NCBI GenBank assembly: GCA_011773845.1
Contig: WVWV01000146.1
Span: forward strand, 59,328-109,506
Direction: 5' to 3'
DNA length: 50,179 bases
Source of the DNA: Lysobacterales bacterium
Lineage (GTDB): Bacteria; Pseudomonadota; Gammaproteobacteria; Xanthomonadales; SZUA-36
The notes beneath the pieces are model-generated. The model had not been told where the DNA came from and did no database searches. It saw only the letters and a list, made by a program, of their open reading frames with translations. The translations under genes were made by a program, and so were the position numbers. The stretch's first letter is position 1, and each line of letters opens with the position of its first letter. This document shows, piece after piece, positions 3,589 to 27,519 of the stretch.

Positions 3589-4368
3589 ATGAGGATCGTC
3601 ACCCTCAACGCCAACGGCATCCGCGCGGCCGCGCGCAAGGGTTTCTTCGACTGGCTCGGGAACCAGGATGCCGACGTGGTCTGCATTCAGGAAACCAAGG
3701 CCCAGGTGCATCAACTGCAGGATCCGCAGTTCTTCCCGGACGGTTATCACTGCTATTACCACGATGCGGAGCGGCCCGGTTACAGCGGCGTGGCGCTGTA
3801 CAGCCGGCATCGCCCCCATGCGGTTCGCGAGGGCCTCGGCTGGCCGGTGATGGACCGCGACGGCCGCTGGCTACAGGTCGACTACGGGGACCTGAGCGTC
3901 ATTTCGCTGTACCTGCACTCGGGATCCTCCAGCGAGGAGCGCCAGCAACTCAAGTTCCAGGCCATGGACCACCTGCAACCGCGCCTGCGGGAGATGGCCG
4001 CCGACGGCCGCGATTACCTGATCTGCGGCGATTGGAACATCGCCCACCGCAAGATCGATCTCAAGAACTGGCGTGGCAACCAGAAGAATTCGGGCTTCCT
4101 GCCCGAGGAGCGCGCCTGGATGAGCGAATTGTTCGGAGAGGTGGGCTGGGTGGATGCCTTCCGCTGCGTGGAACCCGGCGAGCATCAGTACACATGGTGG
4201 TCCAACCGCGGCCGGGCATGGGACAACAACACCGGGTGGCGCATCGACTACCAGGTGGCCACCCCCGGGCTGGCGGCGCGCACGCGCGCGGCCAGCATCT
4301 ACAAGGATCAGCGTTTTTCGGACCACGCCCCGCTGATCATGGACTACGACTTTGATCTCCAGGGCTGA
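3589..4368 (+). CDS. xthA: Exodeoxyribonuclease III (AP endonuclease), catalytically intact
   Basis: 259 aa, exonuclease-endonuclease-phosphatase fold, acting in base-excision repair of abasic sites. All expected active-site residues are seen: N7 (LNANG), E35 (IQETK), Y108, D148 and N150 (CGDWNIAH), D220 (RIDYQ), and D245-H246 (SDHAP). The position next to pyrE and the 259-aa length match Crc of Pseudomonas. Crc, however, has lost these residues (QDTR, CGSLYVAH and SQHAP at the equivalent places), so this is a working nuclease rather than the Crc translational co-repressor. The 3' end overlaps the next gene by 17 nt. Confidence 0.93.
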   Translation: MRIVTLNANGIRAAARKGFFDWLGNQDADVVCIQETKAQVHQLQDPQFFPDGYHCYYHDAERPGYSGVALYSRHRPHAVREGLGWPVMDRDGRWLQVDYGDLSVISLYLHSGSSSEERQQLKFQAMDHLQPRLREMAADGRDYLICGDWNIAHRKIDLKNWRGNQKNSGFLPEERAWMSELFGEVGWVDAFRCVEPGEHQYTWWSNRGRAWDNNTGWRIDYQVATPGLAARTRAASIYKDQRFSDHAPLIMDYDFDLQG

Positions 4369-24601: not shown

Positions 24602-24949
24602 CTACACGGAGAACGAGGCGCCGCAGCCGCAGGTGGTGGTGGCGTTGGGGTTGCGGATCACGAACTGGGCCCCCTGGAGGCTCTCGGTGTAATCGACCTC
24701 CGCGCCCATGAGGTATTGATAGCTGAGCGGGTCCACCAGCAGCGTGACGCCTTCGCGGGTCACCGCGATGTCGTCCGCCTCGCTGGATTCATCGAAGGTG
24801 AAGCCGTACTGGAAACCCGAACAGCCTCCACCCGAGATGTAGACACGCAGCTTGAGCTCGGGGTTGCGTTCCTCGAGGATCAATTCGAGTGCCTTGCGTG
24901 CGGCGGCCTCGGTGAACTGGATTCCGGTTTGTGGTTGGGACGCTTCCAT
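24602..24949 (-). CDS. erpA: A-type iron-sulfur carrier ErpA
   Basis: 115 aa, full length. The three cluster cysteines are in [11 protein letters not shown] and TTCGCGASF. ErpA hands [4Fe-4S] or [2Fe-2S] clusters to apo-enzymes, including those of isoprenoid synthesis and respiration. The upstream GGAGGAGG is 12-19 nt before the ATG, somewhat far but the only strong site. It has its own predicted promoter at 24986-25014. In Pseudomonas erpA lies beside anmK; here it sits with nudC. Confidence 0.95.
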
Positions 24950-24985: not shown

Positions 24986-25014
24986 ACTATGCGGGCAAAC
25001 GGGCTTGTTTTCAA
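24986..25014 (-). promoter_or_regulatory. Predicted erpA promoter
   Basis: TTGAAA (-35, 25009-25014) and CATAGT (-10, 24986-24991) lie 17 bp apart on the minus strand, predicting a start near 24979 and a 30-nt leader containing GGAGGAGG. It lies downstream of the terminator at 25055-25075, so erpA does not depend on the upstream promoter. Confidence 0.5.
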
Positions 25015-25054: not shown

Positions 25055-25075
25055 AAAAAAGCGGCCGAAGCCGCT
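25055..25075 (-). terminator. Strong intrinsic terminator of the small transcription unit
   Basis: Minus-strand stem AGCGGC / GCCGCT closed by a UUCG tetraloop and running straight into TTTTTT. A textbook rho-independent terminator about 120 nt after the cysQ stop. Confidence 0.85.
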
Positions 25076-25145
25076 GAGTCCCTCATTTTTTGATGTTGTT
25101 CTCTGTTATCGTTGTTGTTTTCGGCAAGACCCCCGTAAACGGGTT
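25055..25145 (-). ncRNA. Candidate small RNA (~90 nt) between cysQ and erpA
   Basis: A near-consensus promoter (25152-25180) and a UUCG-loop terminator (25055-25075) bracket about 90 nt with no credible coding frame. Predicted layout, 5' to 3': a hairpin CCCG-UUUA-CGGG (25132-25143), a single-stranded stretch rich in A and C with AAC repeats and CAACAUCAAAAAAUG (about 25084-25120), then the terminator with U6. AAC/ARN repeats plus a U-tail are how many Hfq-bound sRNAs look, and AACAACAA also fits the CA motif of Crc/Hfq targets. It could alternatively be a prematurely terminated leader. No family is recognised. Confidence 0.55.
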
Positions 25146-25151
25146 GCGGAA

Positions 25152-25180
25152 TTTATACTCCTCGCGGCGCGGTGCGTCAA
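25152..25180 (-). promoter_or_regulatory. Near-consensus sigma70 promoter of the small RNA candidate
   Basis: TTGACG (-35, 25175-25180), 17-bp spacer, TATAAA (-10, 25152-25157), minus strand, 16 nt beyond the cysQ stop. Start predicted near 25145. This is the best-matching promoter seen in the window. Confidence 0.7.
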
Positions 25181-25196: not shown

Positions 25197-25994
25197 TCAG
25201 CCCGACATCAGTGACGGCCAATCGGCGCTGGCGTCGCCGAACACCAGGAAGTGGGGGTTCAACAGGCTCTCGCGCGTGTTGTAGGCGAGGCGCCGGCCAT
25301 CCAGGGTGACCACCTGGCCACCGGCCGCTTCGACCACGGCCTGCGCGGCGGCGGTATCCCACTCGGAGGTCGGCCCGAGGCGTGGGTAGAAATCGGCCTC
25401 CCCCGCGGCGACCAGGCAGAATTTCAGGGAGCTGCCCATGCTCACGAGGCGATGCGGGCCGATGGCCTCGAGGCGCTGCGCGAGGTCCGGGTTGGCATGG
25501 GAACGGCTGCCGACCACCACCGCCGGACGGGCGGCCGGCTTGCGCACCGCGATCGGCACGGGCGCGGTCTCGCCGTGGCGGCGAAAACAACCGACGCCGG
25601 CCGCGCCGATATAACTCACGCCGCTGACCGGCACGTGTACGACCCCGAGCGCCGGATAGTGCGCCTCGATCAGCGCGATGTTGACGGTGAACTCGCCGTT
25701 GCGGTTGATGAATTCCTTGGTGCCGTCCAGCGGGTCGATCAACCAGTAGGCCGACCAGGCCGCGCGTTCCGGGTAGGGGATCTCGGCGGCCTCCTCGGAC
25801 AGCTGGGGCAGGGCAGGTTCCAGCTCGGCGAGACGGGCCCGGATGATGCGGTGGCTGGCCAGGTCGGCGCGGGTCAGGGGCGAGCGGTCATCCTTGAGCT
25901 CGACATCGAAACTGCCGCGGTAGACTTCGAGGATTGCGGCGCCCGCCTCGCGCGCAATGGCGTCCAGTGCCAGCAATCGAGCCATGGCTTGCAT
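25197..25994 (-). CDS. cysQ: 3'(2'),5'-bisphosphate nucleotidase CysQ
   Basis: 265 aa, inositol-monophosphatase fold. Li-sensitive phosphatase motifs are visible: PQLSEEAAE (metal-binding EE), WLIDPLDGTKEFI, and SEWDTAAAQAVVEAAGG. It removes the 3'-phosphate from PAP/PAPS made in sulfate assimilation. The ATG at 25994 is preferred; an upstream in-frame start (26054) would overlap nudE heavily. It follows nudE by 13 nt, the nudE-cysQ order seen in E. coli and Pseudomonas. Confidence 0.93.
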   Translation of the reverse strand: MQAMARLLALDAIAREAGAAILEVYRGSFDVELKDDRSPLTRADLASHRIIRARLAELEPALPQLSEEAAEIPYPERAAWSAYWLIDPLDGTKEFINRNGEFTVNIALIEAHYPALGVVHVPVSGVSYIGAAGVGCFRRHGETAPVPIAVRKPAARPAVVVGSRSHANPDLAQRLEAIGPHRLVSMGSSLKFCLVAAGEADFYPRLGPTSEWDTAAAQAVVEAAGGQVVTLDGRRLAYNTRESLLNPHFLVFGDASADWPSLMSG

Positions 25995-26007
25995 TTCGAG
26001 GCGCGCC

Positions 26008-26556
26008 TCAGCAACCGGCAGCGAGGTAGTCGCGGGCGATGTACAGGGCCGCAATGGTGCGCCCCTCGGTACAGTCGCTGCGGCCGGTCAGCTCATCCAG
26101 CCGGGCCATGGGCCAGGGCACCACCTCGAGCTCCTCGGGTTCGTCGCCCGGCAGCCGGCTGGGATACAGTTCGCGTGCCAGCACCACGTGGGTGACGTGG
26201 GTCATGTAGCCGGGCGCGAGGCTGAGGCAGGTCAATTCCGTCAACTCGCGTGCCGCGAAACCTGCCTCCTCCTGCAGTTCGCGCTGCGCGGCCTCGAGCA
26301 CGGATTCACCCGCCTCCAGGCGGCCCTTGACCAGCCCGATTTCATAGTGGTGCAGGCCGGCGGCGTACTCGCGCACCAGCAGCACCGTGTGCTCATCCTG
26401 CATGGGGACCACGATCACTGCGCCCAGGCCACGACTCCTGAGCCGCTCATAGGAGCGCTGCTCGCCGTTCGGAAACTCCAGGTCCAGTTGCTCGATGGTG
26501 AAGATGCGACCGGGATCGAGCAGGCGGCGTCCGCGGATTTTGGGCAGTTTCGGCAT
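26008..26556 (-). CDS. nudE: ADP-compounds hydrolase NudE
   Basis: 182 aa Nudix enzyme with box GLVKGRLEAGESVLEAAQRE followed by LQEEAGF, and the NudE-type N-terminus (FTIEQLDLEFPNGEQRSYER) and HYEIGLVKGR. It hydrolyses ADP-ribose, Ap3A and NADH. It lies 6 nt after the inositol-phosphatase-like gene and 13 nt before cysQ, and is surely co-transcribed with both. Confidence 0.93.
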   Translation of the reverse strand: MPKLPKIRGRRLLDPGRIFTIEQLDLEFPNGEQRSYERLRSRGLGAVIVVPMQDEHTVLLVREYAAGLHHYEIGLVKGRLEAGESVLEAAQRELQEEAGFAARELTELTCLSLAPGYMTHVTHVVLARELYPSRLPGDEPEELEVVPWPMARLDELTGRSDCTEGRTIAALYIARDYLAAGC

Positions 26557-26562
26557 GGCCTC

Positions 26563-27327
26563 TCAGTTGGGGTTCAGCAGGGCCAGCAACTGGCCGTGCA
26601 AGCCTGGGTTGGCGGCCAGCACGGAGCGGGTCTGCATGCCCACCGGCTCGCCCTCGAGGTCGGTGAACACGCCGCCCGCCTCCTGCACCAGCAGGCTCAC
26701 GGCCGCGATGTCGAGGATGTCGACGTCCGATTCGATCACCGCGTCGATCTGGCCTGCCGCCAGGCGGTGGTAGTGATAGTAATCCCCGTAGCCCCGGGTG
26801 CGGTCGGCCCCGGCCAGGATCTGCCCCAGCGCCGCCCACCGCCCGGACGCGGCGAGGCTGCCGATGTTACCCGTGGAAACGCTCGCCTGGCCGAGCGCGT
26901 CGATCGCGCTGACCGCGAGGCGCTCGCCATCCAGCCAGGCACCACCGCCGCGCAGTGCCCAGGCCGTCTCGCCAGCCACCGGTGCCGACGAGACACCCAC
27001 CACGATGACGCCGGCGTGCATCAGGGCGATCTGGGTGGAAAACATGCCGTAGCCGCGCACGAAGCTCTTGGTGCCGTCGATCGGATCCACCAGCCACAGG
27101 TAGTCCGCCTGGGCGCCTTCCACGCCCAATTCCTCGCCGTGGATGCCGTGGTCCGGAAACGCTGCGCGCAGCACGTCGCGTATGGCGTGTTCGGCCTCGC
27201 GGTCCGCTGCGGTGACCGGTGTCCGGTCGGCCTTGGTCTCCACCTCGAAACTGCCGTGATAGTACTCGAGGATGGGGACGCTGGCGGCCGCCGCGGCTCG
27301 CCGGGCGGTGTCGAGAAACTCCTGCAT
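26563..27327 (-). CDS. Inositol-monophosphatase-family phosphatase (HisN-like)
   Basis: 254 aa from the ATG at 27327 (GGAG 7 nt upstream). Motifs are HGEELGVEG, WLVDPIDGTKSFVRGYGMFS, and a C-terminal DVDILDIAAVSLLVQEAGG in which the usual Trp of WDxAA is Leu. It is closest in look to histidinol-phosphate phosphatase (HisN) of the IMPase type. It may also act on inositol phosphate or another sugar phosphate. The open frame reaching 28497 upstream is antisense to bioA and is not part of the gene. Confidence 0.82.
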   Translation of the reverse strand: MQEFLDTARRAAAAASVPILEYYHGSFEVETKADRTPVTAADREAEHAIRDVLRAAFPDHGIHGEELGVEGAQADYLWLVDPIDGTKSFVRGYGMFSTQIALMHAGVIVVGVSSAPVAGETAWALRGGGAWLDGERLAVSAIDALGQASVSTGNIGSLAASGRWAALGQILAGADRTRGYGDYYHYHRLAAGQIDAVIESDVDILDIAAVSLLVQEAGGVFTDLEGEPVGMQTRSVLAANPGLHGQLLALLNPN

Positions 27328-27519
27328 CAATACTCCGGATCGGCGTTTTGACCCATGCGCTGCACCCGTTGCAGATTCCCGGGGCCGTGGCGTGTCCGGG
27401 GCCCGCGCCGGAGGCGGGGCGTCCGGCACGGCGGCCCATTGGCCCGGCCCGGCGCGCATACGGGCTCGCTTGCAAGCCCGGAAAGACCGCTCCATGATAC
27501 CAGAACCCAGCCCCGGCCC

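Follow-up and report, generated by a model that had tools for sequence, protein, structure and literature searches.

A probable class-II-like Hfq small RNA of an undescribed gammaproteobacterial sRNA family, predicted between cysQ and erpA in a Lysobacterales genome

A promoter and a terminator lie between cysQ and erpA in the genome of Lysobacterales bacterium (assembly GCA_011773845.1), and the question they raise is whether they delimit an RNA gene in its own right or serve a neighbouring gene. The window analysed here is the whole stretch of 50,179 nucleotides on contig WVWV01000146.1 (positions 59,328 to 109,506 of the forward strand), and all coordinates below refer to it. cysQ ends at 25197 with its stop codon, and the -35 box begins 16 nt further on. 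The features of the locus are, in the direction of transcription:

25197..26054, minus strand: cysQ, upstream neighbour (open reading frame; Pfam Inositol_P)
25175..25180, minus strand: -35 box TTGACG (sequence; pairwise identity 96% across 28 members of the family)
25152..25157, minus strand: -10 box TATAAA, 17-nt spacer from the -35 box (sequence; 94% identity)
25055..25145, minus strand: predicted small RNA, ~91 nt (promoter/terminator geometry, covariance model R1, homologues in other families)
25132..25143, minus strand: 5' hairpin CCCG-UUUA-CGGG (fold; compensatory pairs in relatives)
25123..25132, minus strand: GGGUCUUGCC motif, candidate pairing (seed) region (GGG-N-CUUGCC kept in the family)
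25086..25121, minus strand: A-rich stretch, unstructured, containing AAC/ARN triplets; candidate site for the Hfq distal face (AAYAAYAA enrichment, A content)
25055..25075, minus strand: intrinsic terminator AGCGGC-UUCG-GCCGCU + U6 (sequence, fold; 98% identity over 28 members)
24986..25014, minus strand: separate erpA promoter TTGAAA-17-CATAGT (promoter scan; conserved in relatives)
24602..24949, minus strand: erpA, downstream neighbour, start 24949 (open reading frame; Pfam Fe-S_biosyn)

The RNA start is an estimate, placed 7 nt past the -10 box, and its end is taken as the final U of the U-tract; the terminator stem-loop alone occupies 25075-25060, and U6 ends at 25055. The original prediction had described a promoter 16 nt after cysQ, a UUCG-loop terminator with U6 about 90 nt on and, between them, a short 5' hairpin, an A/C-rich AAC/ARN stretch and no credible reading frame, and each of these was found as described, on the minus strand. 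Its list of elements was incomplete in one respect: the GGG(N)CUUGCC just past the 5' hairpin (25132-25123) was missing from it. With at most one mismatch allowed per hexamer, TTGACG-N17-TATAAA is the sole near-consensus sigma-70 promoter on either strand of the 50-kb window, as compared to 0.13 expected per dinucleotide-shuffled window; a promoter scan demanding T at position 6 of the -10 box passes over it. The combined promoter and terminator unit was found in none of 60 dinucleotide-shuffled windows. The RNA folds moderately better than its shuffles (z -1.86), as expected since it is mostly single-stranded apart from the terminator, and the A-rich stretch is mostly unpaired in the predicted fold. 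The only ATG frame within the RNA (68 aa, 25086-24880) enters erpA in a different frame; it is not kept among the relatives, which have no conserved reading frame of any kind, and a small protein was thus ruled out. Next to the locus, the stretch at 25197-27342 (minus strand) holds a Nudix gene between two inositol-monophosphatase-like genes, and in many relatives, too, a second cysQ-like match lies ~1.3 kb upstream.

Homologues were first found by DNA search in most genomes of the same family and then with covariance model R1, which matches 30 of 39 family genomes, each with one clear copy; two family genomes show an extra borderline match (E 0.04-0.1), and the source genome of the window has a single copy and no others. 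The 22 named records are all MAGs, mostly labelled Lysobacterales/Xanthomonadales or Gammaproteobacteria. In genus g11 the RNA was absent from all six genomes searched with R1, and none appeared in the cysQ or erpA flanks inspected there. Over 28 units, pairwise identity reaches 96% in the -35 box, 94% in the -10 box and 98% in the terminator, as compared to near-random values in the upstream flank (28%), the promoter spacer (31%) and the downstream flank (30%), a pattern that argues for a selected transcription unit. Promoter, AAC stretch and terminator were all found to be kept in relatives, so that conservation is not confined to the terminator stem; A content is 54% in the A-rich stretch vs 27% in the flanks.

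Within most of the family, the most conserved part of the RNA outside the terminator is GGG(N)CUUGCC, retained in 23 of 24 aligned family sequences (alignment A4; the exception, L020, has GGGACUCGCC). It is missing from L003 (genus g10) and from three members of genus g8 (L016, L017, and L019), which have another 5' end but retain the promoter, the A-rich part, and the terminator. The 5' hairpin varies in sequence with compensatory pairs: 76% of cells are paired, 6 cells are changed on both sides vs 2.0 in shuffles, and the covariation score exceeds all 500 shuffles, relatedness being ignored in these comparisons. Long-range pairing between the 5' segment and the pre-terminator segment was considered but is not claimed: the longest complements sum to 147, as compared to 123.8 +/- 6.5 for shuffles, but clades differ in the register of the partners. 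Overall, the comparisons indicate that promoter, 5' hairpin, A-rich AAYAAYAA/ARN stretch, and terminator have been selected as one single-copy unit.

The A-rich linker points to a partner for the RNA. AAYAAYAA occurs there 26 times vs 3.8 +/- 1.8 in dinucleotide shuffles, and the summed length of ARN runs lies above all 200 shuffles (31 members in each case, relatedness ignored); single RNAs hold 0-5 copies of AAYAAY. The genome encodes a canonical Hfq with the distal-face residues Y25, G29, I30, K31, and Q33 and the rim residues R16R17 of the E. coli protein. Because AAYAAYAA and ARN motifs are enriched and an Hfq with conserved distal-face residues is encoded, binding of the RNA by Hfq, which we infer from the motifs, now has a firmer basis. 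In Gram-negative bacteria, (ARN)n is bound by the Hfq distal face (PMC6422490), and MgrR and other class II sRNAs contact both faces of the protein (PMC6239178). If Hfq does bind, the terminator U-tract would double as a proximal-face site.

We favour, at a probability of about 0.6, an independent, trans-acting, class-II-like Hfq sRNA from a so far undescribed family of gammaproteobacterial sRNAs. The sigma-70 promoter would drive a ~91-nt non-coding RNA; Hfq would bind it on two faces, with the proximal face taking the U-tail and the distal face the ARN repeats, as in the class II sRNAs ChiX and MgrR; and the RNA would repress or activate mRNAs in trans through a pairing region close to the 5' end that differs between clades, the candidate seed in most of the host family being GGGNCUUGCC. 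The features of class II found here are an own promoter with an intrinsic terminator and a predicted discrete short RNA (from sequence and conservation), the lack of coding capacity, an ARN-rich site predicted to be unpaired together with U6, and a host Hfq. The likeness to ChiX, MgrR, McaS, and CyaR of E. coli extends to short length, own promoter, terminator with U-tail, single-stranded ARN-rich internal stretch (here predicted), and the same distal-face residues in the host Hfq; unlike those RNAs, the present one is unrelated in sequence, occupies another locus, and has Hfq binding suggested by its motifs. When 11-nt complements of GGGGUCUUGCC were counted in 14 genomes, 21 non-self matches stood against 19 for the reversed control, which is no excess, and no gene was convincingly common to the matches at start sites in those genomes.

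No Rfam family matches the window RNA, and the nearest to its relatives, CrcZ, falls far short of the threshold. The Xanthomonas sRNAs (Rfam sX families, sX13) are alike in belonging to the same order (Lysobacterales/Xanthomonadales) and in being small and intergenic, but give no Rfam match at either threshold. A literature search in an open library found no paper describing the RNA locus; the Bordetella S17 RNA lies at a different locus, and a Bordetella paper mentioning argC does so in another context. The RNA belongs to a known kind of regulator but forms a new family, and its gene was previously uncatalogued.

A doubtful alternative is a decoy (sponge) like CrcZ, acting on Hfq or on Hfq with a Crc-like partner, in which the AAYAAYAA repeats would titrate Hfq off A-rich mRNA sites and no base-pairing would be involved. 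It gains from the AAYAAYAA stretch, which is shared more widely among families than any other internal feature whereas the pairing region varies, from CrcZ being the best sub-threshold Rfam match of the relatives (25 bits, E 0.01), and from a Crc/NApe-clade ExoIII-like gene next to pyrE in the same window. The matches to the CrcZ covariance model (RF01675) come from two relatives, L124 and L051, at 25 and 17.9 bits, below the gathering score of 95, and probably reflect shared A-rich motifs. Membership in CrcZ was rejected: the window RNA has no match, the best relative reaches 25 of 95 bits, and the RNA is 91 nt long with a sigma-70 type promoter. CrcZ and CrcY of Pseudomonas do share AAYAAYAA-type motifs with it, but they are ~400 nt long, are driven from a sigma-54 (RpoN)/CbrB promoter, and lie at another locus; the 0-5 AAYAAY copies per RNA here are few against the several of CrcZ. 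The ExoIII-like gene (3589-4368, plus strand; 259 aa) is divergent from pyrE, as crc is in Pseudomonas. Its product, however, retains the catalytic residues of ExoIII and resembles Neisseria NApe more than Crc (best match the Neisseria exonuclease-type structure 2jc5, 329 bits vs 261 for Crc), and we do not claim a Crc function for it. A pure decoy also would not explain the strong conservation of GGGNCUUGCC within the family.

Beyond the host family, at least 11 further Gammaproteobacteria families have the unit, diverged in sequence, upstream of an argC-DUF6776-bactofilin-erpA cluster. In another family of the order (f9), L051, L052, and L054 have the RNA before erpA, with no cysQ. Class-level matches to R1 and to a broader model, R2, place it directly upstream of argC-DUF6776 in f143, f130, f77, f151, and f23 and directly upstream of DUF6776-bactofilin-erpA in f17 and f130; 11 of the 15 non-self R2 matches (E <= 0.01) sit at the argC/DUF6776 cluster site. 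Direct reading of 30 argC loci added four more families (L151, L156, L160, and L171), with units consisting of a TTGAC promoter, an AAC/AAT-triplet stretch, and an AAGCGGC...GCCGC/TCGC(T)n terminator. Most of the argC loci sampled had no recognisable unit, and the distribution is thus patchy. Copies distant from the cluster were found beside hemJ in two f33 genomes and beside a ClC-channel gene in one f44 genome. A search of 299 genomes of the phylum returned, besides the window's own, one weak match, from the same class, and no convincing match outside Gammaproteobacteria. The R1 matches in L053 and L055, two genomes of the order that are rich in AT, fall on ordinary terminators outside the locus and were taken as false positives; an R2 match between unrelated genes (L137) was taken as probable chance.

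The pairing region is not conserved outside the host family. The four units added by direct reading show an ACCACCA/CACCACC-type motif just before the terminator, upstream of argC, a possible alternative pairing region. In L108 (f9), the site 293-150 nt upstream of the erpA match holds, between a TTGACG-TATAA promoter and a terminator, an unrelated sequence of ~110 nt with hairpins, which may be a replaced sRNA. As a tentative extension, which we hold to be unlikely as it stands, the RNA may be a broad Gammaproteobacteria sRNA with a fixed Hfq-binding body and a pairing module swapped between clades (GGGNCUUGCC, CACCACC, long 5' hairpins), that is, a general RNA for the Hfq distal face and possibly a sigma-70-driven decoy controlling how much Hfq is free, in bacteria other than Pseudomonas and without CbrAB.

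The near-constant site of the RNA, 5' of a single gene cluster, is compatible with a role in cis as well. The original prediction had argued that the RNA is not simply the leader of erpA, which has a promoter of its own, and both points hold: that promoter is present at 24986-25014, and TTGA(A/T)(A/T)-N17/18-CCATAGT or a close variant occurs in many family members, behind the RNA as well as behind DUF6776. A similar promoter is present in genus g11, which lacks the RNA. Since the erpA promoter is kept with or without the RNA, an erpA leader was rejected for the window, on sequence evidence. Quite improbable, in our estimate, is that the unit serves the whole argC-DUF6776-bactofilin-erpA cluster as a 5' leader containing a transcription attenuator, the short RNA being a by-product. 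Such a leader would suit the same-strand site just upstream of the cluster in about 12 families and six relatives from several genera (L006, L007, L009, L011, L015, and L018) in which the DUF6776 start codon lies 5-9 nt past the U-tract, with no room for a second promoter; read-through is therefore likely there, or the gene is leaderless. No Shine-Dalgarno sequence lies between the U-tract and the DUF6776 start codon in these six. Against an attenuator, the erpA promoter is conserved, RNA-less genomes included, and the RNA is retained before erpA without DUF6776 or argC (the window, L002, L004, and L005). The next gene may be erpA, DUF6776, argC, or an unrelated gene, and the f33 and f44 copies do not adjoin the cluster; the consensus fold holds no conserved antiterminator partner for the terminator arms; and TATNAT-like boxes were seen by eye between the terminator and argC in several families. 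The persistence of the RNA while the adjacent gene varies speaks for an independent gene, one tied, by these comparisons, to no single downstream gene.

A functionless chance or decayed promoter-terminator pair is scarcely credible: such strings can arise randomly, and in L108 such a pair encloses unrelated sequence at the site, but the shuffled windows held no such unit, and its recurrence in other families and its family-wide conservation refute chance for the whole. The independent small transcription unit of the original prediction is strongly supported, as the unit and not its surroundings is kept over the family and recurs in at least 11 others.

The class-II-like sRNA favoured here adds a family absent from Rfam. 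Since the locus can be recognised in a dozen families belonging to a class that is well studied, the RNA should be testable in cultured relatives. If bound by Hfq, the RNA, with its A-rich body and a 5' region particular to each clade, would be a natural case of sRNAs keeping the chaperone-binding part while their targets change or, alternatively, a CrcZ-like decoy outside Pseudomonas.
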